IMG/VR virus record: IMGVR_UViG_3300010885_010083
Coordinates: 1 to 44,685 of that record
Length of the DNA: 44,685 nt
From: a virus
Reading direction: 5' to 3' (one strand)
Shown here one piece after another: positions 11,611-33,717 of this stretch (the stretch's first letter is position 1; each line of letters begins with the position of its first letter). The position numbers and the translations under genes are program-made. The notes beneath the pieces are model-generated. The model did not search any database and had not been told where the DNA came from. It saw nothing but the letters and a program-made list of their open reading frames with translations.

Positions 11611-14600
11611 ATGATTCCATCAACAAATAACAAACTGCTGGTTTCTGAAGATTGGAAAAAAATCTATCAGAGCTACCGCAACGCAGATTTTCAAAGTTAC
11701 GATTTTGAAACTCTCCGTCGCACAATGATTCAGTATCTTCAAGAAAATTTTCCTGAAGATTTCAACGATTTTATTGACAGTAGTGAATATATTGCTCTTA
11801 TTGATCTTATTGCTTTTTTAGGTCAGAATTTAAGTTTCCGCATTGACTTAAATGCTCGTGAAAATTTCTTAGAAACAGCACAGCGCCGCGATAGTATTCT
11901 ACGTTTAGCACAGTTAGTAAGTTATGTTCCTAAGCGTAATACTCCTGCAAACGGATTCTTAAAAGTAACAGCAGTTTCTACAACCGACAATGTTATTGAC
12001 GGTAACGGAATCAATCTAGCAAATACAACAGTTGGCTGGAATGATCCTACTAACTCTAATTGGTATTCTCAATTCCTTGCTATCATGAATTCTTCAATGG
12101 CAGGTAGTTTTTCTTTTGGCAAGCCTTACGATAGACAAACGATCAATGGCATCTTAACAGAACAGTACAGGATTAACAGTGCTAACACTGATGTCCCAGT
12201 TTATGGATTTACTAAAAATATCGGTGGCACATCGATGGCATTTGAAATTGTTTCTTCCGGGTTCTCCGGTAAAACATCAATTTACGAAGAAGCACCGCGT
12301 CCAGCTAATCCGCTTGGCCTAATATATAAAAATGATAATCAAGGAAACGGTAGTAACAACACAGGATTCTTTGCACACTTCCGTCAGGGTAGTTTAAGTG
12401 TTGCAAATTTTGCAGTCGATAATCCAGTGCCTAATGAAATTGTAGGAGTTAACACTACAAATATTAATAACACCGATGTATGGTTATGGCAACTAGATTC
12501 TAATAATTCTTATTCAACTTTATGGACAAAAGTTTCCGATGTTATAGGCAACAATGTTATCTATAATAGTTTAAGTAATGATGTAAGAAATATTTACAGC
12601 GTAACTTCCCGTGATCAAGATCAAGTTGACTTAAATTTTGCAGACGGTAGCTTTGGTAATTTACCCAAAGGCAATTTTAGATTGTTCTATCGTCAAAGCA
12701 ATGGATTAACATATTCTATCAAACCAGAACAGATGAGCGGGATTGTTATTGATGTTCCTTATTACAATAAAAATAATCAACAACATACATTAACATTAAC
12801 TTTAACTTTAGAATATACTGTAAACAATAGTTCTGGTACAGAGTCTAATGCTAGTATTCAGAGCAAAGCGCCCCAGGCATACTATGTGCAAAATAGAATG
12901 GTCACTGCTGAGGACTATAACATTGCCCCGTTGACGCTGGGCAATGATATTCTTAAAGTTAAAAGTGTTAATAGAGTTTCTAGCGGATTAAGCAAGTATT
13001 TTGATCTAAGTGATGTTAGCGGCAAGTATAGTAAAACTAATATTTTTGCTACCGATGGTATTGTTTACAAAGATACTAAAGAAAATATTTTTGAATTTGA
13101 ATTTACAACTAGAAACGAAGTTTTTGCAGTAATTAAGCAACAGTTAGCTACAGTAATTTCATCTACCTCAATGAGATCTTTTTACTTTGATCAATATAGT
13201 AGACCGTTGCTGTTAGAATCAACATGGTTAGTTCCTGTTCCTAAACAACCCAGAGGATATTTTAATAAAGATAACGGCCCAGTTCCAGTTGGCACATTTA
13301 ATTCTGATAATTTTAAATATATCGAAGCTGGCGCACTAATTAAATTTGTTCCCCCTTCTGGAAAATTCTTTACAGCAAATGGAAACCTTACTAGTGCAGA
13401 ATCTACAACCACTCGAAAATATATTTGGTCTAAAGTTGTCCAAGTAGTTGGCACAGGTGCAGGTACATTAGATGATGGCACCGGTCCAGTAATTTTAAGC
13501 GATGTAATTCCAGCTAATTCAATTCCGGTGGAAGTAATCCCTAAATTTGTTAATGTATTTTCTTATGCATTTGAAACAGAATTAGTTAATTTATGTTTAG
13601 GCCAAAGAAACTTTGGTCTTAGTTTTGACAATGAATCTAGATCATGGAACATTATTTCTGATACAAACCTTGATATATTATCTTCTTTTAGTCTAGCATC
13701 TCAGGGAGATAAAACTAATAATAGTAAAGACGCAAGCTGGATGATTGCATTTATTTGGAATAGCAAGAAATACACTGTAAGATATAGAAACACCGATTTT
13801 ATATTTGAAAGTGAAAAAGAAACTGCGTTCTTTGTTGATGCTGATTCAATTAATTATGATTTTACTACTGACACAATTGTCAAAGACCAAGTTAATGTAT
13901 TGTCTATCAATCAATCAAACACATCAACTTATGTTTCTTTGGGCAAAGATTACACATGGCAAATTGATAACGCAGTAATAGAACCAGATGGCTATATTGA
14001 ACCTAAAAAAGTTAAGGTAAGTTTTTATGACTATAATAATTTAGGTCAGATTACTGATCCTGATACATTTAATAATATTGTTCAACCACTTACTACATCT
14101 ACAAACGGATATAGAGATAAGTTTGTTTATTTTAAAAGGCTATCAGACGGTTTGAGATATGTTTTAGTTGACGGAATTGAAGCTTACCCAACACCAGATG
14201 CTGTAGGTAATAATCCGGACCCTAGTGTATTATATTATTTCTATGATCAAAACTACAATGTAGTAAACACTTATTCTACTACAACTAATGCATGGGTATA
14301 TCAACCTGAATATTTTGCATACCCGGGGCGCAGTGGATTAAAATTCCACTATGTTCATAATAGCAGCGAAGATCGTAGGATTGATCCTAGTAAGAGTAAT
14401 TTAATTGATGTTTACTTATTAACATCGGCATACGATGCAGAATATAGAAACTGGTTAACAACTGGCATTGGGTACGAACCCCTTGCTCCGACAAGTCAAA
14501 GCCTAGAAGAAAATTTCTCATCATCGTTGGAAACAATTAAAACTGTCAGTGATGAAATTATTTTTCAACCTGTAAAATATAAAGTATTGTTTAGTAGCAA

Positions 14601-14970
14601 CGCAGATATTAATCTGCAAGCAACATTCAAGGCTGCAAAAAATTCTACAAGACCTGTTAGCGACAATGAATTAAAAACAAGAATCCTATCTGCAATCAAC
14701 GATTTCTTTAGCTTATCAAATTGGGATTTTGGTCAAACATTTTACTTTAGCGAATTATCGACCTATGTAATGAATCTATTAACACCAGATATCACAAACT
14801 TTGTAATAGTACCTAAATCAAACAACAATTTTGGAAGTTTATATGAGGTTGCTTGTGCAAGTAACGAAATTTTCATTAGCGGTGCAACTGTATTTGATAT
14901 AGAAATCATCGATGCAATTACATCATCACAATTAAAAACAACATCTATCGTAACTGGTACCGGAAGTTAA
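11611..14970 (+). CDS. 6: gp6 baseplate wedge protein
   Basis: A protein of 1119 aa. The N-terminal 120 residues carry the gp6 signature: DFQSYDFETLRRTMIQYL, EDFNDFIDSSEYIALIDL and RENFLETAQRRDSILRL. gp6 dimers form the continuous iris ring of the baseplate that changes diameter on contraction. T4 gp6 is about 660 aa, so this protein carries some 450 extra residues, mostly beta-rich sequence in the central and C-terminal parts. A second conserved-looking block near residues 415-440 (NRMVTAEDYNIAPL) is the gpJ-like core. Confidence 0.92.
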   Translation: MIPSTNNKLLVSEDWKKIYQSYRNADFQSYDFETLRRTMIQYLQENFPEDFNDFIDSSEYIALIDLIAFLGQNLSFRIDLNARENFLETAQRRDSILRLAQLVSYVPKRNTPANGFLKVTAVSTTDNVIDGNGINLANTTVGWNDPTNSNWYSQFLAIMNSSMAGSFSFGKPYDRQTINGILTEQYRINSANTDVPVYGFTKNIGGTSMAFEIVSSGFSGKTSIYEEAPRPANPLGLIYKNDNQGNGSNNTGFFAHFRQGSLSVANFAVDNPVPNEIVGVNTTNINNTDVWLWQLDSNNSYSTLWTKVSDVIGNNVIYNSLSNDVRNIYSVTSRDQDQVDLNFADGSFGNLPKGNFRLFYRQSNGLTYSIKPEQMSGIVIDVPYYNKNNQQHTLTLTLTLEYTVNNSSGTESNASIQSKAPQAYYVQNRMVTAEDYNIAPLTLGNDILKVKSVNRVSSGLSKYFDLSDVSGKYSKTNIFATDGIVYKDTKENIFEFEFTTRNEVFAVIKQQLATVISSTSMRSFYFDQYSRPLLLESTWLVPVPKQPRGYFNKDNGPVPVGTFNSDNFKYIEAGALIKFVPPSGKFFTANGNLTSAESTTTRKYIWSKVVQVVGTGAGTLDDGTGPVILSDVIPANSIPVEVIPKFVNVFSYAFETELVNLCLGQRNFGLSFDNESRSWNIISDTNLDILSSFSLASQGDKTNNSKDASWMIAFIWNSKKYTVRYRNTDFIFESEKETAFFVDADSINYDFTTDTIVKDQVNVLSINQSNTSTYVSLGKDYTWQIDNAVIEPDGYIEPKKVKVSFYDYNNLGQITDPDTFNNIVQPLTTSTNGYRDKFVYFKRLSDGLRYVLVDGIEAYPTPDAVGNNPDPSVLYYFYDQNYNVVNTYSTTTNAWVYQPEYFAYPGRSGLKFHYVHNSSEDRRIDPSKSNLIDVYLLTSAYDAEYRNWLTTGIGYEPLAPTSQSLEENFSSSLETIKTVSDEIIFQPVKYKVLFSSNADINLQATFKAAKNSTRPVSDNELKTRILSAINDFFSLSNWDFGQTFYFSELSTYVMNLLTPDITNFVIVPKSNNNFGSLYEVACASNEIFISGATVFDIEIIDAITSSQLKTTSIVTGTGS

Positions 14971-14971
14971 C

Positions 14972-17900
14972 ATGGCAAAACAAGTTATTAAATCGATCAA
15001 TCTACTACCTGAGATTTTTAGAACAGGTAAGAATTCAAAATTTTTAGCAAGTACAATTGATCAATTAATCCAACCTCCGGATCTAGAACGAATTGATGGA
15101 TATGTTGGATCTAAATTAACACCAACATATGTATCTACGACTGACAATTATATTCCTGAGTCTCTATCGTTACGCAGAAATTATCAATTAGAACCTGCGT
15201 TGGTTATTAAAGATAATGCTTCTAATGTAACAGATGTTATCGGGATTGATGACCTTGCCAACGAGATTTCTACCAAAGGCGGCAAAAGTGATAACTTTGA
15301 TAGGTTGTTTAGATCCGAAGTATACTCTTATGATCCGCATATTGATTGGGACAAGTTAGTTAACTACCAAGAATATTATTGGATGGTTACTGGACCCGAG
15401 ACTATTGTTATTACAGGCGAGCAACGCAATACCACTAGCACTTATACTGTGATAGACAATGGTACCGGATCTTCGTTTATTTTTAGTCCTGACGGGCTAA
15501 CTGAAGATCCTGTAATTGAATTGTACAGAGGTAATACTTACCATTTTGAAGTTAAATCTTCATTTAAGTTTTTTGTTAAAACATCTCCCACCACAGGCAA
15601 CGGTGATCAATATAACTATGGCATTACTAATAATGGAACATCTTCCGGTACCGTAACAATTGTTGTTGGTCAAAACACCCCTGACACATTATATTACACT
15701 AATGATAGTCAACAATTTATGCAAGGACAGTTTTCAATTAAATCTTTAGATCAAGATACTTCTATTGATATTGACTTAGCAATCGTAGGTAAGAAATTTT
15801 ACACATCCGGACTAGGAGTTGAGCTAACTAACGGAATGAAAATAAGGTTTGGCGGAACTATTACTCCTGAATCTTATAGAGAAAAAGAATATTTTGTAGA
15901 GGGCGTTGGCAAAGCAATCCAATTAATTGATTATTCATTATTAACTGCTTCACAAAGTATTAAAAATGTTTATAATGATAACTTTGATACTACTGCGTTC
16001 GATGACTACCCGTTTGACAATTATAAAAGTTTACCCCTTGTACCAGAATATATCACTATCAATCGTGCCAGCCAGGATTTAAATCCTTGGTCTAAATATA
16101 ATCGTTGGGTACACAGCAGTGCTATTAAAGCAAGTGCAGAAGCCAATAATCAAATCCCTGTATATCCTGCTAACCAGCGAGCAAAACGACCTATCATTGA
16201 ATTTGTACCAAATTTAAAATTGTTTAATTTTGGTTCAACTGGAATTGATGATGTTGATTATATTGATACAGTTACAACTGATGCATTTAGTAAAGTAGAA
16301 GGTTCTGCCGGTTATTATGTTGACGGAATTTTATTAGAGCAAGGTAATACAGTTATTTTTAGTGCAGACACTGATTCAATTGTTCGTAATAAAGTTTTTC
16401 GAGTTAACTATGTTAAATTAAAAGGTAGTACTTATTTAGAACTACAAACAGTTTCGTCACCCGAAGCCGAAGCTAGTGTTAGTGTAAATTTTGGAAAAAA
16501 ATATGCAGGTACTAACTGGTGGTTTGATGGATCTAATTGGAATTTTTCTCAACAGCACGATTCATTAAATCAAGCACCTTTGTTTGATCTGTTTGATAAA
16601 TTGGGAAATCGATACAGCGACACTGTACATTACCTAAGTAGTTTTAGCGGTAATAAAATATTTGGTTATGAAATAGGTACAGGATCGAATGATACTGTTT
16701 TAGGGTTTCCATTAAAATATAAAAATAGTTCTGGAGTAGGTAGCTACTTGTTTAAGAATTATTTCATGACTGATACTATTTCCATATCAGAAAGCAATCA
16801 AGTTGTTACTAAAATTTCTACTGCCGATACTTACCTTAAGTTTATAAACGACGAGACTTATACAAATGTATGGGCATTAACAGCTGATTATCAGATACCT
16901 ATTTTACAATTTCAAACAATTGAAAATCAATCTACTTCTACAATTGCAATAACAGCAGTTGATAATCCTGCTATTGTAGATTTGCAATTAGATGTATTTG
17001 TCAATAGCGTTAAAATAGATGCATACACAACTGCAATAACCGGACCTAATTATTTTGTTAAGTTTACAAATGTTTTAACTCCTGGGGACAACGTCTTATT
17101 CAAAATATACACAGATGTTCCGGTCAATAATAACGGCTATTATGAATTACCGTTGAGTTTGACTAATAATCCGTTAAACGGTCCAATTACTTCGTTAACA
17201 CTAAGTGAATTAAGCGACCATTTGCATACTGCAATTCATAAATCTCCCGACTTTGTTGGAAATTTTCCAGGAGTAAGTAATTTAAGAGATATTTCTAATA
17301 TTGTAGCGTATGGAGACAGATTAATTTCTAATGCTAGCCCACTGGCATTTGCTAGTTTCTTTATTGGAAAGAAAAATCACAGTGTTATCGATGCTACTGC
17401 TAAGGCCGCCGACCAATATAATCAATTTAAGATTTCTCTTCTAAAACAATTAGTTAAACTTGAAGATCAAACAGACCCGGTTGCCGCGCTTGACATTGCC
17501 TTAAAAGAAATTAATCTTGATAAAGATCTTTTATCTCCGTACTATCTCTCAGATATGATAGCCTACGGCACAGATAAAACTGTTAGAACATGGACGGTAA
17601 CAGATGTACGAAATACAGTCTATCCTATTACATCTGATTTTAGACTCGATAAATTAAGTTTACGGTCTGTCTTAGTTTATCTAAATGGTGTACAACTTAT
17701 TAATAGTGTTGATTACGAATTTGTAACTGACGATTCTACTATTCAAATGTTAACACCACTTGTAGTTGGTGATACAATTACTATTAATGATTATTATAGT
17801 ACAGCAGGTTCTTTTGTACCATCAACTCCTACGAAGTTGGGATTATTTCCTAAATTTACTCCTAGAATATTTGAAGACACATCATACATTAGTGCTCCTG

Positions 17901-20900
17901 TAAATGTTATACAAGGACATGACGGTAGTATTATGTTGGCCTACAACGATTTTAGAGATAACGTTATTCTTGAATTTGAAAAGCGTATCTATAACAACAT
18001 TAAAACTTTGTACAGAGAAGATTTAATAGATATAAATTCTGTTCTACCAGGTGCATTTAGATCAACCGACTACTCTGTTAATGAAATAAATGAAATACTT
18101 CAAAGCGACTTTATTAAGTGGGCAGGTTTTTACGGCATCGATTATTCTACAAATAATATCACCTTACCAGACGAGTCCCGTACATGGAATTTTCAAGGTG
18201 GGTACAGTGATGTAGTCGAAAAATCTGTTTCTGGATTCTGGAGAGCTGTGTTAAAATACTTCTATGACACTGACCGTCCGGACATATGTCCTTGGGAAAT
18301 GTTAGGATTTAGTGAAAAGCCAACCTGGTGGGAAAGAGAATATGGTCCTGCTCCGTATACCTCTGGCAACGAAATGCTATGGGACGATTTAAAAACAGGT
18401 ACAATCCGTCAAGGAACTCGAGCAGGAATACATTCAGTATATGCTCGACCTGGACTATATTCTATTTTACCAGTTGACAACTTTGGTAATCTAGTTGATA
18501 CATCATCTTTGCTTTCTACAATTACAGAATACAATAAACGTCAAGATTGGAAATTTGGCGACCAAGGACCTGCTGAAACTTCTTGGAGAAGAAGCAGTTA
18601 CTGGCCATTTGCGGTTCAACGGTTATTAGCATTAACCAAGCCTGCTGTATATGCATCATTGATGTATGATACAAGTCGAGTAACAAAGAATCTTGCAGGA
18701 CAGTGGACTTATGGTACCGATGGTGAATTTTTAAACATTAAAAATATTTTTATTCATGATGATAATAAAACTTTAACCAGCGGCTATAGTGTATTTGTTT
18801 CTGAAACAGGACAGCAACGTTCTAAAGATTATATTAATGAATTAAAAACTGATTTAAGTAATATTGATTTTAATTTATTTTACAAAGTTGGTGGGTTTGT
18901 TAGCAAAGATAAATTGCAGATTCTTATTGATGCATACGACCCTACAACTACCGGACCTGGCGCATTACTTCCACAAGAAGATTATAACTTAATCTTGAAT
19001 ACCAGTAACCCGGTTAAGTCTATTGGAATTTCTGGTATTATTATTCAGACTACTGACGATAAATTTACTGTACAAGGGTATGATACTGAGAATCCGTATT
19101 TTACAATTTATGAACCTACTAGAAATTCCTCTACACCTACTATTACTGTAGGTGGAGTATCTGAATCCTATGTAACATGGACTGCAGGGACCACTAGCGG
19201 AAATACTGGATTGTCTGATGCAGATACTACAACAGCAGTAGCAGCATCGTCTGGTAAATTCTATCAAGCCGGGCAGTTAGTTGCGTACGGTAATGATTTT
19301 TACAGAGTTAAAATTAGTCACCAAAGTGGCTCTACATTTAATACTGCATATTTTCAAGCCATAACAACTGTACCTTTAACTGGCGGAGCAACAGTACAAA
19401 CTGAAAATGGTTTTAATTTTACACCTAAACTTGTTCCTTATAAAACAGAATTTAACACTATTCAAGAAATCTACGATTTAATTATAGGTTATGGCAAGTG
19501 GTTAACAACTCAGGGATTTATATTTGACGAGTATAATGCTGATTTTAATTCTACCATTGATTGGTATTTTTCCGGGAAAGAGTTCTTATACTGGACTACT
19601 CAGAAATGGTCAGATCGTAGTATTATTACCCTAAGTCCGTTTGCAGGTAAAATCAAATATCAGCTAGCTGGAACAGTGGTAGATAATGTTTTTGATAGTT
19701 TCTATCAATACAGTTTATTAAATGCGTCTGGGTTATCTTTCCCACAAGGAAACATTTCTGTTAATCGAGATGACGGCGTCTGCTCAATCGAAACTGTTAA
19801 TTCAACAGATGGAATTTATTTTGCAGTAATACACTCTGTACAAAAAGAACATGCAATGGTCTTTAACAGTACTACAATTTTCAATGATACTATCTATGAT
19901 ATTGAAACAGGGTATCGTCAGCGTAGAATAAAATTATCAGGATTCCGTACAGCAAATTGGAATGGAGATTATTTCAGTCCCGGTTTTATATACGACACTG
20001 CTCAGATTGCAGATTGGCAACAATATAAAGATTACAAATCTGGCGACCTAGTTAGATTTGCAAGTTTTTATTATTCTGCAAATAACAATGTTTCGGGTAC
20101 CACCTCATTCGATTTTACTCAATGGACTAAGTTGGGTGAAAAACCAGTTGCTGGTCTATTACCTAATTTTGATTATAAGATTAATCAGTTTGAAGATTTC
20201 TATAGTTTAGATATTGATAATTTTGATTCTGCACAGCAGAAGATGGCACAACACCTAACTGGTTATACGCCCCGTGTTTACTTAAACAATATATTCACAA
20301 ATCCTATTTCACAATATAAATTCTATCAAGGATTTATCAAAGAAAAAGGTACCCGTAATGCTATCAACAAATTATCCAAAGCAACAGTACAAAATTTCCA
20401 AGGCGAAATTGATTTCAAAGAAGAATGGGCGTTCCGCATAGGCCATTACGGTGCATTTGAGACATATAACGAAATTGAAATTCCGTTAAATGAAGGCGGG
20501 TTTATAGAAAATCCTCAGGTAGTTAACTTTGTTAATTCAGTACCTACATCACCTAACGATTTAATTTATTATAGTGCTAGTGCTGATAGAGTAATCACTC
20601 CTGTAGATTACACAGCAAAGGATACCTTTCCAATTGACACAGATGATGATTTTGAATATCAGTTATCTACTGCGGGATATGTTAGACTTGACGATGTAAC
20701 AGCTACATCCTATGATGATGCAACACTTCTTGAAATTACCAACAATGGCAGCATACAAGAAGGCGATGTTATTTGGATAGGATTTAAGAAGAATGGAGAT
20801 TGGGGAGTATCTCGATATACCAGATCCGACGCAGGAGTTGTGGGTGTAACACTAGATACTAATACATCAGAGCTTACCTTTATAACTGATAATCTTCACA

Positions 20901-23900
20901 TGTTATCAGAAGGTGACATAGTTTCAGTTTCGCAATTTGGCAACACAGTTAACGGAATTTATACTGTTAAATCTGTGGTTGGAACTAACACTTTTATAGT
21001 AGATACTACCTTAACATTCATTGACAGCACTTTACTATCTGCAAAAGGTGCTTTATATTCTTTTGTATCTGCAAGATTTGACACATTTGATAATTTACCG
21101 TTAGACAATGATTTATTATCTTTACCTGATGGTACAAAATTCTGGGTAGATCGTGAAGAACTTGTTGCCGGAGAAAAAACTAATAAATGGAAAGTTTATC
21201 AAAAGGTAAACAACTTTACTGCAATCTCTAATACTGGTGCATATAGTAATGAACAAATTGGATACAGTATCAATAAGAAAAATGGCAACGATATGTTTGT
21301 CGTGGGATCTCCGGCATTTAACACTGGTACAGGTGTTTCGAGAATCTCTGGAAAAGTTGCACTATACGAAAAGATAGGAGATACCCACGCCGAAAGAGCT
21401 GAGTTTTTCTTAAATGATTTACCTGTTACATACTATAATGTTTCATCGGCACCAGTTTCAGAATTTGGCCGCTGTGTTGTCTATGACGACATTGAAACTA
21501 CTAATTGGCATCAATATTGGAAACCTTCTGTAACATATACTGCTGGCATTATTGTTCGATATGGTCGTTATTCTTACAGATGTATAACATCTCATACGTC
21601 AACGATTGATATAGATTTAACAAAATGGTATAAACTTAATTTTGGATTAATATTCTCTGGAGCACCTGGAGTTAGTTATGCTGGCACATCTACATATACA
21701 ACCTATGTTCAACAAGGGTTAGTAAAAATTAGTAGTATTAATTCTTCTTTGTTAGAAGAAGTTACAGAAAAGGTATTGTCTAATCCGGTAACAGCAGCCA
21801 GTTATCAACGATTTGGTTCTTCTATATTTGTACAACGTAGTACAGGTACTAAGGCAATGATAATTAGTGCTCCTGGTACAGCAAGTACAGGAACTGGCGC
21901 AGTGTATGCTTATAGTATTACTGCAAATACAAGTACAGTGGGCGTAACATACAGCAAGGTATTAACTCCGCCAGTGACATTAAATGTAGGTAGTCAGTGG
22001 GGTCATGCTATCAGCGGATCAGATGATGCAAGTATTATTGCAGTTGGTGCGCCTGGGTACTCAACTAGTACAGGTGTTGTTGCTATATTCACAGGTACAT
22101 CAGTATCCACACATTATCAAGCTATCACTTCACCGTTTGGTAAGTTAGCAAGATTTGGAGAAACAGTGTTTGTTTCTGCCGATGGTACAGAATTGTTTGT
22201 ATCTGCTCCTAATGTTAGAAACAGTGACCGATCTTTCGGAGCAGTTGTTGTCTATTCAAGAACAACTGGAACATTTAATACATCAACATATCAAATTATA
22301 GCTAACCCTGCAAAAGGTGCAGGCATGCACTTTGGTAAAGCAATTGATATTACCGCTGACGGCGGAATATTAGTAGTGTCTGCATTAGGAAACAGTAAAA
22401 ATGTACATACTACCTTTGATACCAGCACAACATTTGATGCTGGCTCAACAAGCTTCTTTGGAAACTTTAAAGACTCTGGTACTGTATATGTATTTGAGCG
22501 TGAACGAAAGTCTAGTAGATATGTACTAGCAGACGATCTAGAATCTACAGTAACCGTTGCCGGCTCGTGGTACGGCAATAGTGTAGCAGTTGATGACACT
22601 GCTATTTTGGTAGGTGCTCCTGCTATTACTGGTTTAACAACTTCGACAATGTATCAGTTTAATAAAATTGATAGTACTATTACAGGATTTGAAGTAGTTA
22701 GTGAAAAAGACGATCCAATAATGATCGATGCTATACAAAAAGTAACACTAATTAATGCGTTTACCGAAGAAGTTGTAGATTATCTTGATGTAGTTGATCC
22801 TCTAAAAGGAAAAATTGTAGGTATTGCAGATCAAGAATTAAAATATAAATCTGCGTTTGACCCAGCAGTTTATTCTGTAGGTACAACATCTACTGTTACT
22901 GATCCGGAGTCTTGTTGGGTAGATAATCATGTAGGTGAATTGTGGTGGGATTTAAGTACCTCAAAATATATGTGGTATGAACAAAGTGATTTAACATATA
23001 GAAAAAATAACTGGGGTAAACTATTTCCCGGAGCAACTATAGATGTTTATGAATGGGTAGTTTCTATCTATCTGCCAAGTGAGTGGAACACAAAATCTAA
23101 TTCTGCAGCCGGCCTAGCTGAAGGTGTAAGCGGTCAACCTAAATTTATTGACGATAGTACTGTATCTGTTAAACAAGTGTACGATCGAATGACTAATTCT
23201 TTTAGTAATTATTATTACTATTGGGTTAAAAATAAAATCACAGTACCTAATGCTAAGAATAGACGAGTAAGTGCTTATCAAGTTTCTTCGATGATTGCTG
23301 ATCCTACCGCTTACGGAATTAAATTTGCCGCAATTATTGATAGTGATGCAATTGCATTGGCTAATGTAGGACCTTTATTAGTTGACAATAGAATCCATTT
23401 AAATGTTTCCTTAGATTCAACAAATAAAAATGAAGCACTAAAGCATACAGAGTGGTTGCTATTACAAGAAGGGTCTGCTACAAGCACTCCAAACACACTA
23501 CTTGAGAAAAAACTTCTTGATAGTTTATTAGGACATGATAGTTTAGGTAATCCTGTACCTAATCCGACATTGTCTGCAAGAACAAGATATGGTATAGGAA
23601 TTCGACCACAACAAACTTTATTCAAAGATAGACTAGAAGCACTACGCAATCTTGTAGAATTTACAAATTCTGTGTTAATTAAAAATCTAATTACAGACAA
23701 TTATAGTTTTTCTAATCTAAACAAACAAGATAACATTCCTGACGAATATAGTCATCAGTACGATCAAGTTGTTGAAGATAACGAAGGTTTATTAATTATA
23801 GATACTAGATTATTTTCTAGACCAGTATTAACATGTACAGTTGCTAACGGAAAAATTCGTAGTGTTCAAATTGTAAATCCGGGATTTGGTTATAAGATTT

Positions 23901-26900
23901 CTCCTACAGTTTCTATTATCAGTGATGTTAAATCTGATGCATTAATTACAACTGAAATTGATGACCTAGGTAGAGTTACTTCGGTAAAAATTGATAATCC
24001 GGGTAACGGATTTACATCTGCGCCGACACTGGAAGTTCGCCAGTACACTGTAATTGTTCAGGCTGATACACAATTTAACGGAAAATGGTCTAAGTTTGTT
24101 TACAACTTAGATACACACGCATGGACTCGCATTGGTACACAAACTTATAATACACCGTTATACTGGAATTATATAGATTGGTCTAGCACTGAGTATAATC
24201 CTTACCTAGATTATACAGCAACAGTTGATGATGTTTATGAAGTTAATAAATTAGATTTAACAACAGGACAATATGTTAAAGTTAAAAACGGAGGATCTGG
24301 ATCGTATATTATTCTAGAAAAAGTCTCTGCAGATACAGTAGGAACATTTGATGCTGAATATAATATTGTTTACAGCGAAAACGGAACTATCCAAATAGCT
24401 AACAGTATCTGGGATACAAAAAATAGTACTCTTGGATTTGATCAAGTTGGAAGTTTTGATCAAACATTATACGATCAAACACCCGACATTGAATTACAAT
24501 ATATATTGGCAGCGTTAAAGAACGATATATTTGTCAACGAATTAAAAGTTAATTGGAATTTATTCTTCTTTAAGGCAGTTAAGTATGCACTAACAGAACA
24601 AAAATTATTAGACTGGGCTTTCAAAACATCATTTATTAATGTTGTTAATAATGCAGGTTTATTAGATCAACGACCTGTTTATAAATTATCAAATACTGAT
24701 TATTATGAACAATATTTAGAAGAAGTAAAACCATACCATACTAACATCCGTACATTTACTTCTAAGAACAGTGTCACAGACCCTACACATACTTACACAA
24801 CTGATTTTGATTTGCCATCTGTTTACAATAAAACAACCGGCTTGTTTGAATCAATTGAAATTGGCAGTGATAAATTATCACAATATCCTTGGAAGTCGTG
24901 GGCAGATAATAATACCTATGAAGTTGGGGCTATTAAAGTAGGTGTTAAGGGTAGCGGATATACTGTTCCTCCTACAATTGAAATTATAACTGCCCCCGGA
25001 GACACTGGATCTGGAGCAACGGCTAGGGCATTTATTAGTTCTGGACAGGTTACTGGAATCGAAGTTACAAATCCTGGATCAGGTTATATGAAATCTCCGA
25101 CAGTCTCTATTGTTGGCGGAGGTGATACTCAATTAACTAAAGCGGTAGCGTATGCTCAGTTATCTAATGGTAAGATTAGAACAAATCAAATTTCTATGAA
25201 ATTTGACAGAGTAAGTTCAGTTGATCAAATTGGCTCAAATACAGTAACAGATAAATTTATTTGCAACGGAGCAATAAGTGAATTTACATTAAATTGGTTA
25301 GCAAAAGCAAGCAAACTTGATATAACTATTACTCTTGATGGTAATATTGTTTTAAGTTCTGATTATACCCTTGAATATTTTACAGAAGACTATAATGGTT
25401 ACAATAAAAAGTTTTCTAAGATTGTTTTCTTAAGTTATGTTCCTGCAAGTAATCAATTATTAGAAGTTACTTACTTAAAAAATACAGACTTATTCAATGC
25501 AACTGAAAGAATATTAAATTATTATACTGCAACTTCTGGAATGCCTGGGCTTGATCTAGGCCAACTAATGTTAGGTATTGATTATCCTAAGACTAAAATT
25601 GAAGGATTGTTGTTTGATAAAACTCAATCATGGGATTTAGTATTTCCTAACGGTGAAGGAACACCATTTGGGCAAAGTTCCTATGCTGACAGTATTAGTT
25701 ATTATACTAAGACAACTTCAAGTTTTACATCTACTATTGTTAATGCAGGAACACAGACTAGTGTTGTATTAAGTACTACAACTGGCATTGCAGTAGGACA
25801 ATTTGTTAATGTTATTAGTACCACTACAAATGCATTTACATCTTCAACTGTTAAAGTTAGTAGTGTTAACAAAGCTACTAGAACAATTGTTCTTAATACA
25901 ACAACGGTGGCTACACTTAATACTGGATCTATATTTGAGTTCTGGACATACGATACAAACTCTAGTTTATTAGATAGTGCAATTGATGGTGGTAATCTAT
26001 CATATTCAACTGCGTTAGGTATTAATCCTGCCGACATCAACATTGACGGAGATAGTTTCTTTTCTGCAAATACAAGTCATGCTCCGGAAGAGTTTGTTCC
26101 TGGACAAGCATCTGAAAGTATCGGTATTAATGTCTACACTAAAAATCCACAAGGTGCTCCGTTAGTATTTTCAGGATCAATTCCTATTCAATCTAATACA
26201 GTAACAACGTTTGCATTAGGTATGCGACCTATTAGCATTAATAATATTTCAGTTAGTTTTAATCATCAATTGTTATCATATGCTACTAATTTGCAGTTTT
26301 TAACAAATGTTGGTACACCCGAATATCAAATTAATTGGGAAACAAATGAAATTATTATTGGTCCACAAGGACCTTCAGGATATGTGGGATATACTATTAC
26401 TAGTATAGGCGGTGGCCGCCCAGATATCGAAGCCGGTGTGATTGATACTGCGGTCAGCGTTGGTCAACCATATGTTGGGTTTGAAGATATTAATAGCCCT
26501 GCTATACAAGTAGTAAGTTTGTCTTCATACGATACTGTTAAGAGTGTATATGTAACATTAAATGGTATACCAATTGCTCAAGGACCTTCAAATACAACTT
26601 ATTATGTTCTCACTTATGCTAATGAAAATGATAACAGAGCAGCAGTTAATGTTAGAAATCTTCCTAGCAATCAAATCAATACAGTTCAAGCATGGTTTTT
26701 TGGAACGCAATACGATTATTATAACGAAATTAGAGAACAGATAATTCCAATTTCGACAACTACCTACGAGTACACGTTACTATACCCTCCGGGCCCAACC
26801 GAACCCGCTGCCGCTTCTGCAATTATTGAACATCATTTTGCTACTGGTTTAACAAAACGGTTAATACCACCTCACATTAATTATTATCAAATAACTACAT

Positions 26901-28552
26901 CAACTGAAACAACTTTTGTTATTGATAATAATGGAGTGTTTAACGCCTTAGATGGTACAGTAAGAGTTTACATTAATGGCAGACTGTTAGTAGGCGGTTT
27001 TGATTTTACTGTTGTATTAAAAGTTGTTACAATTATTGCCCCATTAACTGCCGGTGACTTAGTTGCAATACTCAATACGCCTTTACCTGGTCCTAATTTG
27101 GATTATGATTATGACATTGACGGTACTACTCTTTATTTTAACCCAAATAGAAGCCCGACAAGTTTCTCAACAACTGCAACTAATGGCTATCTTCGAGTTC
27201 TTACTTACAAAGATCACGACGAAATGCTAATGAGAACAGAACGATTTGATGGTAATCCTAATAGAAGATTTAAGATTTCTCGTCCAATAGAAGATAGCAA
27301 ATATGTATGGGTTGATATCAACGGAGTACCATTAACTAGCGGTCTTGATTTTGAAATTCTTGATGATAAGGTAACTATTCAAATTAGTGATGATTATCGT
27401 CTTACACCTGGAGACAATATTGTTATTACTAGTATGGTACAACAACGTTTTGCTACAACAATTGTTGGATATAGAATCTTCAATGACATGTTTAATAGAA
27501 CACATTTTAAACGTTTGTCAAAACAAAACACTTCATTCTTAATCCAGCCATTGAAATTTACAGATACTGAAATTCATGTAAACGATGCAACAGTATTTGC
27601 ACCGCCGTTAGTTGCCATGAATATTCCCGGAGTTGTAATTATTGATGGAGAAAGAATTGAGTTCTTTACTGTCACTGATACTACATTAGGACAACTAAGA
27701 AGAAGTACATTAGGGACGGCACCTAGTTTCTATTCAGATGTTGGCACAAAAGTAATTGATCAAAGTCCTGCACAGACTATTCCTTTCAGTGAAACTATTA
27801 AAAATCAATATCACTATATTTCAACATCGACTAGCACAGTTGTTTTAAATACGTCTACTAGTTCGTATACATTTATTATTAATACAGCTTCGACCGCAAC
27901 AATAATTCCTTTAAGTATTAATACATCTACTATAACTAGTAACGGTATTACTTTATCTACTGTAACTTCTGTAAATGCTGTTGATCAAATTCAAATATTC
28001 TACGGTGGACGACTGTTGAGAAAAGCAGGATATTATAAACACGACACTACAATGTCCTATGATAGTCCCGATACTAAAGGTATTGAAATTAACTTTACAT
28101 CCACTGTAGCAGCGTTACCGTATGCATTTGTACCTGGAACTGCGTATGTTGTAACCGCAACAAATCAAGTCTGGGTTTATACTGATTCTCATGAATCAGA
28201 TGCCGTTAAAGGATATGTTTATAGAGGAATGGATTATGTTCCTCCTGAATTTACTATTAACACCTCTACACAAGCAGTAACATTAAATATTGAAGGCGGT
28301 ATAAGCAGCAATGTTAAATTACAAATTGTAAAGAAAGAATTTAATAAAGCAGAAGTTTGGAACGACGTTGATCCGTCAGACGCTAAAAGAACACTATCTA
28401 TCATGGATAGTACCTCTACTCAAGCAACATTCCTACAATCTGAACCTGCAGAATTACCAGATAAGTACTATTTTGGAGGAGACATTACACTAGTTACTAG
28501 CGGCGGATCTCCACTAACTGATATTAATAACGAACCATTAGAAGGATTTTAA
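14972..28552 (+). CDS. Giant 4526-aa virion/tail structural protein
   Basis: One uninterrupted 13.6-kb gene directly after gene 6. T4 has gene 7 in this place, but this product is more than four times longer. Near residue 125 is DWDKLVNYQEYYWM, a pattern I associate with giant marine T4-like virion proteins. Three short aromatic modules resembling CBM5/12 carbohydrate-binding domains lie near residues 1428-1450, 1681-1715 and 2178-2220. FG-GAP-like blades (for example FGSSIFV...IISAPG and WGHAISG...AVGAPG) run from about 2095 to 2560, consistent with an integrin-alpha-like beta-propeller. NPGxGY-PTV repeats lie near 2960, 3000, 3318 and 3357. Repeats of the form NG-L-S-DY/F occur near 906, 4000 and 4114. 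A GERIEFF module is near 4226. GGAAG precedes the ATG. Likely a peripheral baseplate, fibre or sheath decoration that binds host surface glycans. Confidence 0.8.
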   Translation: MAKQVIKSINLLPEIFRTGKNSKFLASTIDQLIQPPDLERIDGYVGSKLTPTYVSTTDNYIPESLSLRRNYQLEPALVIKDNASNVTDVIGIDDLANEISTKGGKSDNFDRLFRSEVYSYDPHIDWDKLVNYQEYYWMVTGPETIVITGEQRNTTSTYTVIDNGTGSSFIFSPDGLTEDPVIELYRGNTYHFEVKSSFKFFVKTSPTTGNGDQYNYGITNNGTSSGTVTIVVGQNTPDTLYYTNDSQQFMQGQFSIKSLDQDTSIDIDLAIVGKKFYTSGLGVELTNGMKIRFGGTITPESYREKEYFVEGVGKAIQLIDYSLLTASQSIKNVYNDNFDTTAFDDYPFDNYKSLPLVPEYITINRASQDLNPWSKYNRWVHSSAIKASAEANNQIPVYPANQRAKRPIIEFVPNLKLFNFGSTGIDDVDYIDTVTTDAFSKVEGSAGYYVDGILLEQGNTVIFSADTDSIVRNKVFRVNYVKLKGSTYLELQTVSSPEAEASVSVNFGKKYAGTNWWFDGSNWNFSQQHDSLNQAPLFDLFDKLGNRYSDTVHYLSSFSGNKIFGYEIGTGSNDTVLGFPLKYKNSSGVGSYLFKNYFMTDTISISESNQVVTKISTADTYLKFINDETYTNVWALTADYQIPILQFQTIENQSTSTIAITAVDNPAIVDLQLDVFVNSVKIDAYTTAITGPNYFVKFTNVLTPGDNVLFKIYTDVPVNNNGYYELPLSLTNNPLNGPITSLTLSELSDHLHTAIHKSPDFVGNFPGVSNLRDISNIVAYGDRLISNASPLAFASFFIGKKNHSVIDATAKAADQYNQFKISLLKQLVKLEDQTDPVAALDIALKEINLDKDLLSPYYLSDMIAYGTDKTVRTWTVTDVRNTVYPITSDFRLDKLSLRSVLVYLNGVQLINSVDYEFVTDDSTIQMLTPLVVGDTITINDYYSTAGSFVPSTPTKLGLFPKFTPRIFEDTSYISAPVNVIQGHDGSIMLAYNDFRDNVILEFEKRIYNNIKTLYREDLIDINSVLPGAFRSTDYSVNEINEILQSDFIKWAGFYGIDYSTNNITLPDESRTWNFQGGYSDVVEKSVSGFWRAVLKYFYDTDRPDICPWEMLGFSEKPTWWEREYGPAPYTSGNEMLWDDLKTGTIRQGTRAGIHSVYARPGLYSILPVDNFGNLVDTSSLLSTITEYNKRQDWKFGDQGPAETSWRRSSYWPFAVQRLLALTKPAVYASLMYDTSRVTKNLAGQWTYGTDGEFLNIKNIFIHDDNKTLTSGYSVFVSETGQQRSKDYINELKTDLSNIDFNLFYKVGGFVSKDKLQILIDAYDPTTTGPGALLPQEDYNLILNTSNPVKSIGISGIIIQTTDDKFTVQGYDTENPYFTIYEPTRNSSTPTITVGGVSESYVTWTAGTTSGNTGLSDADTTTAVAASSGKFYQAGQLVAYGNDFYRVKISHQSGSTFNTAYFQAITTVPLTGGATVQTENGFNFTPKLVPYKTEFNTIQEIYDLIIGYGKWLTTQGFIFDEYNADFNSTIDWYFSGKEFLYWTTQKWSDRSIITLSPFAGKIKYQLAGTVVDNVFDSFYQYSLLNASGLSFPQGNISVNRDDGVCSIETVNSTDGIYFAVIHSVQKEHAMVFNSTTIFNDTIYDIETGYRQRRIKLSGFRTANWNGDYFSPGFIYDTAQIADWQQYKDYKSGDLVRFASFYYSANNNVSGTTSFDFTQWTKLGEKPVAGLLPNFDYKINQFEDFYSLDIDNFDSAQQKMAQHLTGYTPRVYLNNIFTNPISQYKFYQGFIKEKGTRNAINKLSKATVQNFQGEIDFKEEWAFRIGHYGAFETYNEIEIPLNEGGFIENPQVVNFVNSVPTSPNDLIYYSASADRVITPVDYTAKDTFPIDTDDDFEYQLSTAGYVRLDDVTATSYDDATLLEITNNGSIQEGDVIWIGFKKNGDWGVSRYTRSDAGVVGVTLDTNTSELTFITDNLHMLSEGDIVSVSQFGNTVNGIYTVKSVVGTNTFIVDTTLTFIDSTLLSAKGALYSFVSARFDTFDNLPLDNDLLSLPDGTKFWVDREELVAGEKTNKWKVYQKVNNFTAISNTGAYSNEQIGYSINKKNGNDMFVVGSPAFNTGTGVSRISGKVALYEKIGDTHAERAEFFLNDLPVTYYNVSSAPVSEFGRCVVYDDIETTNWHQYWKPSVTYTAGIIVRYGRYSYRCITSHTSTIDIDLTKWYKLNFGLIFSGAPGVSYAGTSTYTTYVQQGLVKISSINSSLLEEVTEKVLSNPVTAASYQRFGSSIFVQRSTGTKAMIISAPGTASTGTGAVYAYSITANTSTVGVTYSKVLTPPVTLNVGSQWGHAISGSDDASIIAVGAPGYSTSTGVVAIFTGTSVSTHYQAITSPFGKLARFGETVFVSADGTELFVSAPNVRNSDRSFGAVVVYSRTTGTFNTSTYQIIANPAKGAGMHFGKAIDITADGGILVVSALGNSKNVHTTFDTSTTFDAGSTSFFGNFKDSGTVYVFERERKSSRYVLADDLESTVTVAGSWYGNSVAVDDTAILVGAPAITGLTTSTMYQFNKIDSTITGFEVVSEKDDPIMIDAIQKVTLINAFTEEVVDYLDVVDPLKGKIVGIADQELKYKSAFDPAVYSVGTTSTVTDPESCWVDNHVGELWWDLSTSKYMWYEQSDLTYRKNNWGKLFPGATIDVYEWVVSIYLPSEWNTKSNSAAGLAEGVSGQPKFIDDSTVSVKQVYDRMTNSFSNYYYYWVKNKITVPNAKNRRVSAYQVSSMIADPTAYGIKFAAIIDSDAIALANVGPLLVDNRIHLNVSLDSTNKNEALKHTEWLLLQEGSATSTPNTLLEKKLLDSLLGHDSLGNPVPNPTLSARTRYGIGIRPQQTLFKDRLEALRNLVEFTNSVLIKNLITDNYSFSNLNKQDNIPDEYSHQYDQVVEDNEGLLIIDTRLFSRPVLTCTVANGKIRSVQIVNPGFGYKISPTVSIISDVKSDALITTEIDDLGRVTSVKIDNPGNGFTSAPTLEVRQYTVIVQADTQFNGKWSKFVYNLDTHAWTRIGTQTYNTPLYWNYIDWSSTEYNPYLDYTATVDDVYEVNKLDLTTGQYVKVKNGGSGSYIILEKVSADTVGTFDAEYNIVYSENGTIQIANSIWDTKNSTLGFDQVGSFDQTLYDQTPDIELQYILAALKNDIFVNELKVNWNLFFFKAVKYALTEQKLLDWAFKTSFINVVNNAGLLDQRPVYKLSNTDYYEQYLEEVKPYHTNIRTFTSKNSVTDPTHTYTTDFDLPSVYNKTTGLFESIEIGSDKLSQYPWKSWADNNTYEVGAIKVGVKGSGYTVPPTIEIITAPGDTGSGATARAFISSGQVTGIEVTNPGSGYMKSPTVSIVGGGDTQLTKAVAYAQLSNGKIRTNQISMKFDRVSSVDQIGSNTVTDKFICNGAISEFTLNWLAKASKLDITITLDGNIVLSSDYTLEYFTEDYNGYNKKFSKIVFLSYVPASNQLLEVTYLKNTDLFNATERILNYYTATSGMPGLDLGQLMLGIDYPKTKIEGLLFDKTQSWDLVFPNGEGTPFGQSSYADSISYYTKTTSSFTSTIVNAGTQTSVVLSTTTGIAVGQFVNVISTTTNAFTSSTVKVSSVNKATRTIVLNTTTVATLNTGSIFEFWTYDTNSSLLDSAIDGGNLSYSTALGINPADINIDGDSFFSANTSHAPEEFVPGQASESIGINVYTKNPQGAPLVFSGSIPIQSNTVTTFALGMRPISINNISVSFNHQLLSYATNLQFLTNVGTPEYQINWETNEIIIGPQGPSGYVGYTITSIGGGRPDIEAGVIDTAVSVGQPYVGFEDINSPAIQVVSLSSYDTVKSVYVTLNGIPIAQGPSNTTYYVLTYANENDNRAAVNVRNLPSNQINTVQAWFFGTQYDYYNEIREQIIPISTTTYEYTLLYPPGPTEPAAASAIIEHHFATGLTKRLIPPHINYYQITTSTETTFVIDNNGVFNALDGTVRVYINGRLLVGGFDFTVVLKVVTIIAPLTAGDLVAILNTPLPGPNLDYDYDIDGTTLYFNPNRSPTSFSTTATNGYLRVLTYKDHDEMLMRTERFDGNPNRRFKISRPIEDSKYVWVDINGVPLTSGLDFEILDDKVTIQISDDYRLTPGDNIVITSMVQQRFATTIVGYRIFNDMFNRTHFKRLSKQNTSFLIQPLKFTDTEIHVNDATVFAPPLVAMNIPGVVIIDGERIEFFTVTDTTLGQLRRSTLGTAPSFYSDVGTKVIDQSPAQTIPFSETIKNQYHYISTSTSTVVLNTSTSSYTFIINTASTATIIPLSINTSTITSNGITLSTVTSVNAVDQIQIFYGGRLLRKAGYYKHDTTMSYDSPDTKGIEINFTSTVAALPYAFVPGTAYVVTATNQVWVYTDSHESDAVKGYVYRGMDYVPPEFTINTSTQAVTLNIEGGISSNVKLQIVKKEFNKAEVWNDVDPSDAKRTLSIMDSTSTQATFLQSEPAELPDKYYFGGDITLVTSGGSPLTDINNEPLEGF

Positions 28553-29493: not shown

Positions 29494-31083
29494 ATGACAT
29501 ATACACTACGATACTCAGATCTTACTAAAGACAAAACTGTTACAGTCCCTAATATGCCCCCTGGCATTAATACTGTTGACACAAGTTTGAGTCTAGTTGG
29601 GAGAGGTTATCCTAATTATGGTGAAAAGATTGCTGAAAATTTTTTGCATTTATTAGAAAATTTTTCCGGACCTATCCCTCCCGAGAACCCAATTGAAGGA
29701 CAACTGTGGTACGATACTAGCGATATATCTAGGAAAGTTCTGCGTGTTATGGACGGTACTGCTTCGGCTACTCGCTGGCCTAGTGCCGCTGGAATATACC
29801 AACAAAATAGCGATCCTAAAGATACTTCGACTGCGGGGTTAAAAGACGGAGATATTTGGGTAGACACTGCTGCTGTCCAACTTAGAATTTATAAAAATGG
29901 TGCTTGGACCACAGTTGGTCCTACTATTGCTTCTGGTTCTACAAAAACAGGAATGGAAGCAACTACCCGTGAAAGCAGTACAGGCACAACTTCAACTGTA
30001 ATATTAAATTATGTAGACGGGGTAATTGTATCTGTTGTTTCAAATGATGAATTTATCCCGCAACCTTCTATCGAAGGTTTCAGTGTAATTCGTCCGGGCC
30101 TTAATATTAGACCTACTGAAGTTACTAAAAATTATAGAATTTGGGGAGATGCTGATAGAGCAGTAAACTTAAAGGTATCTGGCGTAAATTATTCAGGTGC
30201 TGAATTTTTAAGAAAAAATGATTATTCAAATCGTGGACAAGTTGTTAAAGGCCATATAGTATTCACACAAAGTAATGCAGCACTTAGAGATGCTAATTCC
30301 GTTAATAACGGTCTTGTTATTGACAGCGGAACAGGTAGTGAGTATGTTCAGTTTGCTAAAGAAAATGATAATGCAGTATTATACACTAGTGTTCTTGCTG
30401 GTAAACTTATTTTTAGAACAAATAATTTAGGAACGTCGTTTGATGCAATTTCTGTAGGAAGTTCATCAGTTGATATTATTACAACAACCACAGTTAGCAA
30501 AGATGTAACTATTGCTGGAACACTTTCAATTAGCAATACATCTACTACTTCGATACAAACCGCGGGCGGATTAAGCATTGCTAAAGATATTATTGCAGGT
30601 AGTTCTATTTCTGTGTCCAAAGTAATATCTGCTAATACAGTAACGGTAGGGACTGCATCTGGAAACGGCGTTGCAATTGCAGTCAACAATGCTGGTACAT
30701 ACGATATTGGAACAGCAAGTAATAAATTTAGAAGTATATATGCATCAAATGTTTATTCTACTGTTGCAATCTATACTACAGCAGTTAATGCAGTTTCAGT
30801 AAGTGCATCATCTATATCTGCTACTACTGCTACTGTAAATAATTCATTTGTTAATATTACTGGAGAAGTAAAATCTTTTGCAGGATCATCAATTCCATCT
30901 GGCTGGCTTACTTGTAATGGTGCAACTTTTTCAACATCTACTTATGCAGGGTTGTTTAGTGTAATAGGTTACACATATGGTGGTTCTGGAAGTAGTCCTA
31001 AAGTTCCAAATATGTCTACTTCGACATATATTACAACAGGAACAAGTACAGGAACATACCTAACATATATCATAAAGACATAA
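29494..31083 (+). CDS. Tail fibre with C-terminal collar domain
   Basis: A protein of 529 aa. The N-terminus has the fibre module shared by the next three genes (SLVGRGYPNYGEKIAENFLHLLENF, then GQLWYDT around residue 66 and a second copy GDIWVDT near 118). The middle is Ser/Thr/Val-rich with GGLSIAKDI and GTLSISN repeats typical of trimeric fibre shafts. The end, from about residue 456, is a phage tail-collar domain (GEVKSFAGSSIPSGWLTCNG), as in gp12-type short fibres, which binds receptors. GGAG lies about seven bases before the ATG. Confidence 0.82.
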   Translation: MTYTLRYSDLTKDKTVTVPNMPPGINTVDTSLSLVGRGYPNYGEKIAENFLHLLENFSGPIPPENPIEGQLWYDTSDISRKVLRVMDGTASATRWPSAAGIYQQNSDPKDTSTAGLKDGDIWVDTAAVQLRIYKNGAWTTVGPTIASGSTKTGMEATTRESSTGTTSTVILNYVDGVIVSVVSNDEFIPQPSIEGFSVIRPGLNIRPTEVTKNYRIWGDADRAVNLKVSGVNYSGAEFLRKNDYSNRGQVVKGHIVFTQSNAALRDANSVNNGLVIDSGTGSEYVQFAKENDNAVLYTSVLAGKLIFRTNNLGTSFDAISVGSSSVDIITTTTVSKDVTIAGTLSISNTSTTSIQTAGGLSIAKDIIAGSSISVSKVISANTVTVGTASGNGVAIAVNNAGTYDIGTASNKFRSIYASNVYSTVAIYTTAVNAVSVSASSISATTATVNNSFVNITGEVKSFAGSSIPSGWLTCNGATFSTSTYAGLFSVIGYTYGGSGSSPKVPNMSTSTYITTGTSTGTYLTYIIKT

Positions 31084-31087
31084 CAAA

Positions 31088-32662
31088 ATGGCATATACAA
31101 TTTATAACACCGATGGAACAACTCTGCTATTATTAGCAGACAATACTGTAGATCAATCTGCTACTAGTTTAAATCTTGTTGGCAAGAATGTTAATGGGTA
31201 TGGTCAGTATGTGAACAACAACTTTATAAAGTTGTTAGGTAGTTCTGCAAGTGCAGCAGGTAGTCCTCCTAGAAGTCCATTAACGGGTCAATTATGGTTT
31301 GACACTACTGCTCGTAGGTTAAAAGTATATGATGGATCTTTTAAGCCAGTAACTGGTGCAAGTGTTTCGGGAAGTGCTCCTGCAAATCCTGTGTCCGGCG
31401 ACCTATGGTTTGACTCAATTAACTATCAATTAAACGCATACAACGGAGCAGTTTGGACTATTGTTGGACCTCCATTCCAGGCCCGTGTTGGAGAAAACGG
31501 ATGGATTGTTCCTCCCGGTTCTTTCCTTGACACTTATCAAAATAGACAATTAGTTACTTTGATGAAGAACTACGGTAGGACACTGGGAATCATTTCTACT
31601 GCTTCTTTTACAACAACTGAGTTTACAACATCTACTACATTGTTGTCGACTAGTACAACTGATATAGTTAACGGATTAACAATATTTGGGTCTATACAAG
31701 CAACTGGCAATATGAAAGTGTATAATACACTTACTACTAAATTACTTCTTTCTACAAATATAATAAATTCTGGAACACTTACTACCATAGATCTTGATAC
31801 AAGAACAATGTTAGCTAGCTCTACCGCAACATTTACAAAGACTACTAATAGTACTAGCACTACAACCGGGGCATTAATAATTTCTGGCGGTGTTGGTATT
31901 GGTAAAGATTTATATGTTGGTGGTAAGATTGTTGCACAAGAATTAGACATTCAATATACAACAGTAACCACAACTTTAATAATTACAGATGATGTAATTT
32001 CTACATACAATACAACTCCTGCATATTCAACAAATACCGGAGCATTGGTAATTGGTGGAGGTATAGGTGTAAATGGTGGTGTATTTGTTGGTGCCGCATT
32101 AACTGCAACAACAGTGGTTGCAACTCATTCAACAACTACTAATGCAGTAATATCTAAACTAACAGCAACAAATGTACTAGTTACAACTATTACTGCTACT
32201 AATTCATTGGTTACAAATTTCACTGCTACTAATTCAACTCTTACTAATGTTGTAATAGGTGCCGCACTGAATATGGGGACCAATAAAATTACCAATATGG
32301 CTGACCCTGTTGCTGATACAGATGCAGTAACCAGACAATTCTTATATGGTAGAAGCATTGTATTAAGTATGGATGTCTCAGACGGAATAAGCAATGCTAA
32401 TATTATTACTTACCTTGCTCAGATTGCTCCTGTTGCTGAATATAAAAATGGTACAAATGCTAGAATTTTGTGCTCAACAATTACCCTTAGTTCTGGTACA
32501 GTATCTGTAAGTACAACAAACGGTACATTCTTGATAACAACTTCAACTTCCGGAACAGCATTAACTGGTGCAACTGCTAGTGCAACTGCACCTACTGTGA
32601 GTGTTTCAAGAGTTGTAAAGACATTTACAATATCCAGCGGAGCATGGACTTTTGTATCGTAA
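31088..32662 (+). CDS. Tail fibre, shaft repeats
   Basis: A protein of 524 aa. It shares the N-terminal module with its neighbours (NLVGKNVNGYGQYVNNNF, GQLWFDT near residue 69, GDLWFDS near 106). The shaft contains GALIISGGVGIGKDLYVGG and a shorter GALVIGGGIGVNGG copy. A 10-residue repeat based on (L/I/F)TATN follows near residues 358-390. The C-terminal 120 residues lack the collar and G2-like ends seen in the other fibres and may be the tip. Probably a receptor-binding side fibre. No clear ribosome binding site is visible; the start is four bases after the previous stop. Confidence 0.78.
   Translation: MAYTIYNTDGTTLLLLADNTVDQSATSLNLVGKNVNGYGQYVNNNFIKLLGSSASAAGSPPRSPLTGQLWFDTTARRLKVYDGSFKPVTGASVSGSAPANPVSGDLWFDSINYQLNAYNGAVWTIVGPPFQARVGENGWIVPPGSFLDTYQNRQLVTLMKNYGRTLGIISTASFTTTEFTTSTTLLSTSTTDIVNGLTIFGSIQATGNMKVYNTLTTKLLLSTNIINSGTLTTIDLDTRTMLASSTATFTKTTNSTSTTTGALIISGGVGIGKDLYVGGKIVAQELDIQYTTVTTTLIITDDVISTYNTTPAYSTNTGALVIGGGIGVNGGVFVGAALTATTVVATHSTTTNAVISKLTATNVLVTTITATNSLVTNFTATNSTLTNVVIGAALNMGTNKITNMADPVADTDAVTRQFLYGRSIVLSMDVSDGISNANIITYLAQIAPVAEYKNGTNARILCSTITLSSGTVSVSTTNGTFLITTSTSGTALTGATASATAPTVSVSRVVKTFTISSGAWTFVS
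32192..32236 (+). repeat. 30-bp-period coding repeat in fibre shaft
   Basis: The 15-mer ACTGCTACTAATTCA occurs at 32192-32206 and 32222-32236, exactly 30 bases apart, encoding TATNS units of a 10-residue repeat. Repeats of this kind let fibre shafts change length by slippage or recombination. Confidence 0.7.
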
Positions 32663-32676
32663 ACTAGGAATAAAAA

Positions 32677-33705: not shown

Positions 33706-33717
33706 ATTGGAATAATT

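Follow-up and report, generated by a model that had tools for sequence, protein, structure and literature searches.

How does a 4526-residue protein encoded directly after a gp6-type gene compare with the proteins known from this place in other phages? In T4, the annotated gene order leads from gp6 directly to gp7 and then to gp8, and gp7 (PF21427/PF21428/PF21456) carries the Pfam domains Gp7_helical, Gp7_5th and Gp7_6th together with a weak fn3. Among the Kyanoviridae, giant proteins stand in the post-gp6 position: 6817 aa in ACG-2014d, where YHYH and laminin-G-like domains are also present, 6378 aa in S-RIM2, 6198 aa in S-ShM2 and 3032 aa in S-CAM1. In PA5oct, 121Q and Atu_ph07, a gene for a giant 'virion structural protein' comes after a gp6-type baseplate wedge gene, and PA5oct gp355, next to gp6, is annotated ESI-MS/MS. 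The virion proteome of phAPEC6 contains gp245, a protein of 381.88 kDa detected with 17 unique peptides and 7.6% coverage, whose gene comes after that of gp244, a 'baseplate wedge' (PMC7247149). CBB_236, detected with 21 peptides and 7.72% coverage, adjoins CBB_237, also a 'baseplate wedge' (PMC5259590).

The locus and its protein family

The window, that is, the whole 44,685-base stretch of virus DNA analysed here, is a record that is probably a fragment, and a DNA-level search of isolate phages with it found no match. A single forward frame with an ATG start and no internal stops runs from 14972 to 28552, encodes 4526 aa (predicted mass 501.7 kDa, pI 4.8) and fills 30% of the window, much as a sequence-only reading of this DNA had described it. 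The giant ORF and the genes 5' of it are:

6908-7210, gp53-type gene (PHROG)
7212-9542, structural protein gene (PHROG)
9545-11104, gp5-type hub (PHROG)
11125-11562, gp25-type gene (PHROG)
11611-14970, + strand, gp6-type baseplate wedge subunit of 1119 aa, immediately 5' of the giant (phrog_10646, E 1.4e-283)
14972-28552, + strand, giant ORF, phrog_10938-family virion structural protein (ORF scan, PHROG profile)

Judged by these sequence matches, the upstream genes are a T4-type baseplate operon, and with gp53-, gp5-, gp25- and gp6-type genes just 5' of it the giant does occupy the place of gene 7, as had been proposed, T4 gp7 likewise coming after gp6. Downstream of the giant follow an 84-aa ORF, a 221-aa ORF and four fibre-like proteins. 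The fibre-like ORFs, in tandem at 29494-34965 (529, 524, 342 and 415 aa), have a common phrog_14394 N-terminal domain and different C-termini, that of the first (529 aa) being a Phage Tail Collar domain; they look like a cassette of fibres on one anchor. The window also holds genes for a QueE-like radical SAM protein and a thymidylate synthase (43390-44247 and 34962-35846), which are usual metabolic cargo of large phages.

The phrog_10938 profile matches the giant with 1085 bits in 4 stretches across the conserved core, and it matched 22/22 N-termini. Relatives found by tblastn, mostly at 25-33% identity, belong to PA5oct-like, 121Q/PBECO4-like, RaK2-like and Agrobacterium jumbo phages, and an IMG/VR search yielded 108 loci, some of them on contigs of 320-425 kb. 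A gp6-sized ORF lies immediately before the giant in most of the loci that extend far enough upstream. The annotated relatives, in PA5oct, 121Q/phAPEC6, CBB and Atu_ph07, are 'virion structural protein' (phrog_10938), and PA5oct gp355, 121Q gp582, Atu_ph07 gp180, CBB_236 and phAPEC6 gp245 agree with the window protein in family, length class, core and post-gp6 place. We take phAPEC6 gp245 to be the orthologue because its size, its position and the phAPEC6 tblastn match agree; CBB_236, from its position, appears to be the CBB sequence matched in the search. The giant had been called a virion protein, which mass spectrometry bears out for the orthologues PA5oct gp355, phAPEC6 gp245 and CBB_236 only, and the peptide coverage of 7.6% and 7.72% in orthologues does not show an intact chain. 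The phrog_10938 giants are a widespread baseplate-protein family of large phages, catalogued without a function.

In one relative, L014, the giant ORF is broken near residue 1865 (L014:11040-11140) by one frameshift, which is either real or an error; a natural gene fission at residue 1865 was ruled out, the homology changing frame at one point. Relatives L127-L134 lie on MAG contigs labelled Pelagibacter, Neomarinimicrobiota, Methanoregulaceae and others, titles that name unrelated organisms and were dropped as a guide to the host; these are probably contigs of large phages that were wrongly binned with GTDB species genomes.

The family alignment comprises 73 non-redundant sequences, 3.1-5.4 kaa in length, one of which is the window protein. 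Conservation, scored in 50-residue bins and per module, delimits a core at about residues 1-148, 263-600, 726-1865, 2600-2950 and 3050-3300, the segments of which mostly have a median identity of about 58-64% with 28 close relatives. AlphaFold2 (AF2) modelled residues 1-1200 with a mean pLDDT of 84.7. The resulting map distinguishes the fixed core of these 3-5.4 kaa virion proteins from their optional surface modules; databases have so far listed members of this large class under 'virion structural protein' or 'hypothetical protein'. All parts lie on the + strand:

14972-15415, +, N-terminal conserved segment, residues 1-148 (found in almost every relative; median identity to close relatives 64%)
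15416-15757, +, predicted cupredoxin-fold module, residues 149-262, optional (Foldseek, phrog_677)
16940-17137, +, NG module 1, residues 657-722 (HMM)
17147-19171, +, conserved core, residues 726-1400, containing NG module 2 at 883-957 (conservation)
19247-19384, +, CBM5/12-like module 1, residues 1426-1471 (Pfam; kept in most of the family)
20015-20155, +, CBM5/12-like module 2, residues 1682-1728 (Pfam; kept in most of the family)
21266-22711, +, predicted integrin-alpha-type seven-bladed FG-GAP propeller, residues 2099-2580 (Pfam, AF2, Foldseek)
21500-21637, +, CBM5/12-like module 3, residues 2177-2222, in propeller blade 2 (Pfam, strand grouping)
22769-23821, +, post-propeller conserved core, residues 2600-2950 (conservation)
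23834-24091, +, NPGxGY block 1, residues ~2955-3040 (motif/HMM)
24929-25171, +, NPGxGY block 2, residues ~3320-3400 (same module in cyanophage gene-7-site giants and phiM7 gp92)
25280-27457, +, C-terminal stalk of five NG modules, residues 3437-4162 (variable in distant relatives)
27944-28156, +, last NG module, residues 4325-4395 (HMM)

The NPGxGY and NG repeats noticed earlier could be located as three motifs, at residues 2969, 3009 and 3367, and eight modules, starting at residues 657, 883, 3437, 3742, 3844, 3981, 4099 and 4325, the last six belonging to the C-terminal region; the NG-module HMM was seeded from the window itself, so its E-values are not independent. A match of residues 3233-3406 to phrog_460, 'head closure Hc2', overlaps the NPGxGY module and was not taken as functional, because the matched module also recurs in cyanophage giants and phiM7 gp92.

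The propeller and its inserted module

In some integrins, an alphaI domain is inserted in the propeller of the alpha chain. An integrin-alpha-type, seven-bladed propeller is a well-supported prediction for residues 2099-2580 of the window protein, and it too contains an extra inserted domain. The AF2 model of residues 2064-3263, built from a 36-sequence alignment, has a mean pLDDT of 80.6, with the blades mostly at 80-95, and a pTM of 0.49, so that the arrangement of the domains is not fixed by the model. DSSP assigns 28 strands between residues 2099 and 2580, which fall into seven sets of four, the sorting into blades being our own grouping. In a blind Foldseek search of the predicted model against the PDB, integrin entries accounted for 50/50 of the best matches listed, at E-values of 1.9e-13 to 5e-10 and 11-17% identity; the TM-score to the target reached 0.65 (0.64 at E 1.9e-13), and the rmsd of the alignments, in which the query is a predicted model, was mostly 6-9 A. 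Pfam FG-GAP_2 (PF14312) matches in 3 stretches with E 5.7e-5, over the gathering score on a 700-aa sub-region and under the cut-off on the window's own 1200-aa piece, and it matches 30/36 sequences of the regional alignment, the best at 3e-19. The sequence-only reading had seen FG-GAP blades at about residues 2095-2560 and predicted an integrin-alpha-type propeller from them; AF2 and DSSP place seven blades at 2099-2580, and the predicted structure does contain a seven-bladed propeller.

Integrin alpha chains (alpha5, alphaV, alphaIIb) share the predicted seven-bladed FG-GAP fold and are the best PDB matches, but identity to them is only ~15%, no calcium DxDxDGxxD loops were seen in the blade sequences when read by eye, the insert is a CBM5/12-like module in blade 2, and the window protein has no known leg domains or beta partner. 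The earlier reading had overlooked that some family members do without the propeller. The sequence between the flanking cores is non-propeller in PA5oct (281 aa), 121Q (139 aa) and the environmental relative L006 (207 aa), and the propeller is therefore optional; Atu_ph07 has 1371 aa at this place, rich in NPGxGY-like repeats. In contrast to PA5oct and 121Q, the majority of environmental members possess the integrin-type propeller. Its identity in close relatives (31-44%) is below that of most core segments, a divergence that may reflect relaxed packing instead of host contact. A literature search of limited coverage, by title and abstract, found no paper that deals with a phage baseplate carrying an FG-GAP propeller.

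Three CBM5/12-like modules, two of them upstream of the propeller, had been proposed, and Pfam finds three, at residues 1426-1471, 1682-1728 and 2177-2222. The CBM5/12 family (PF02839, cut-off 26.2 bits) matches the whole protein with E 3.5e-9 and 37 bits, and a sub-region with the three copies with E 6.9e-12 and 45.6 bits in 3 stretches. Whole protein and module 3 alone (27.4-28.4 bits) exceed the curated cut-off, and modules 1 and 2 together, at 20.1 bits, are under it. Of the 44 positions in the profile, the matches cover only 2-30 or so, and binding is putative. At least one copy occurs in 72/73 family proteins, the exception being 121Q, and modules 1 and 2 are each present in 28/28 close relatives; fixed in nearly all members, these two therefore look structural rather than host-specific.

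Module 3 is different. The sequence-only reading had put it after the first blade; the strand grouping places its ~45 residues within blade 2, between strands 1 and 2. It is absent from all of the 28 closest relatives, in which the site is empty. In 11/12 relatives aligned at this site, an FG strand (..VVYDD.. or similar) is joined by a short linker to a GLIF.GAP strand, and the twelfth, L013, is similar with a less clear alignment. Other relatives carry CBM copies at different propeller or C-terminal positions. The simpler reading is that module 3 was gained by the window phage and not lost by the others, a module insertion caught with the empty site in the nearest relatives. Its AF2 confidence is low (pLDDT 33-47) because few aligned sequences span the module. 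Insertion and empty site allow a direct test, in which cell binding by the propeller is compared with and without the CBM.

A further module, at residues 149-262, was overlooked in the earlier list of domains. Foldseek matches it to rusticyanin (TMt 0.43-0.46) and multicopper oxidases, and a cupredoxin fold is therefore predicted; phrog_677, the family of the cyanophage gp9 'tail fibre connector', also matches (E 6.8e-9). The module is present in 12/28 close relatives. By eye, the copper ligands His-Cys-His-Met are substituted in the window module. A multicopper oxidase function was ruled out, there being one cupredoxin fold only and the ligand positions being substituted. One relative, L039, retains a canonical-looking ligand set by eye (CGNHIAM), and some family members, going by such residues, may bind copper.

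Role at the baseplate and relation to gp7

We put at roughly 60% the probability that the giant is a wedge-associated baseplate protein in the gene-7 place of a T4-superfamily (jumbo-type) phage, consisting of a core and exchangeable surface modules, with the propeller and CBM probably touching the host. The core would anchor the giant in the baseplate beside gp6, as gene order and the virion proteomics of orthologues suggest. Threaded on this core would be the exchangeable modules, namely the cupredoxin fold, the seven-bladed propeller and the NG and NPGxGY beta modules, the beta modules presumably building stalks. In the window phage, the CBM5/12-like module would sit in a blade-2 loop of the propeller, and propeller and inserted CBM would most likely contact glycans or proteins of the host surface close to the baseplate, with primary recognition performed by the separate fibres. 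The long adhesin with possible glycan recognition that the sequence-only reading had suggested is thus a putative role. The propeller is probably exposed on the surface; the modules are optional and variable and the CBM site differs among relatives, which fits surface contact. More tentatively, the integrin-alpha-type baseplate propeller of jumbo phages could be viewed as an interchangeable cell-surface-binding head, varied by small CBMs gained in its loops, and the CBM insert would then be reminiscent of the inserted I domain of some integrins. If this is true, an integrin-type adhesion head evolved, or was captured, in viruses of bacteria.

Might the propeller instead work inside the virion? 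It could be a docking platform for the downstream fibre paralogues (29494-34965) or for neighbouring wedges, with the CBM-like inserts as structural spacers. The common phrog_14394 N-termini of the paralogues would suit such a platform, as would the fixation of CBM5/12-like modules 1 and 2 across most of the family and the occurrence of the NPGxGY module in other gene-7-site proteins, but PA5oct retains similar downstream virion and fibre genes without a propeller, the propeller is more variable than the core, and the position of the CBM insert differs among relatives. We consider docking possible, with the odds against it. That assembly or annotation produced the ORF artificially, or that its product is no virion protein, is scarcely credible: although the contig is a 44.7-kb fragment, dozens of independent full-length relatives have the same neighbour gene, and orthologues were found in the virions of three phages.

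A different matter is descent from gp7, which can hold jointly with either the host-contact or the docking account. The giant would then be a true gp7 orthologue that, enlarged by inserted domains and too diverged to be recognised by sequence, serves mainly to initiate the wedge with gp6. The two proteins have the same place right after gp6 and the same baseplate module, but the giant is ~4.4 times longer and shares no detectable sequence homology with T4 gp7. Despite the gene-7 place, the comparison with gp7 profiles suggested by the sequence-only reading was negative by hhalign, HMM and Pfam. No Gp7_helical, Gp7_5th or Gp7_6th domain was found in the giant by Pfam to E 1 on the whole protein and to E 10 on pieces, hhalign of all giant segments against gp7 gave a probability of ~1% or less, compared with 95% for the positive control, and a gp7-family HMM had no significant match in the giant family. 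Searches with PHROGs, and with a core profile that joined T4-type gp7s to Desulfovibrio phage 7757 and phiM7 and was checked with reversed-profile controls, were also negative. Neither modelled part (residues 1-1200 and 2064-3263) had gp7 among its 50 best listed PDB matches, lists that were swamped by cupredoxins and integrins. A likeness of residues 91-128 to the 'STKG...LF' region of gp7, noticed by eye, was rejected at an hhalign probability of 0.6%. What favours descent, beyond the identical gene place, is that the Kyanoviridae gene-7-site giants (3.0-6.8 kaa) combine weak gp7-core matches, which are not found in the window family, with the NPGxGY module that they share with it, and that in phiM7 gp92 a gp7-core match (1.7e-10) occurs alongside an NPGxGY module (7e-5). 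On balance, we regard orthology with gp7 as rather doubtful. Going by these motifs, NPGxGY modules in a large protein at the gene-7 site are a theme found more widely in the T4 superfamily. The Kyanoviridae loci L123, L124 and L125 encode structural proteins of 6198-6817 aa right after gp6, with many NPGxGY modules.
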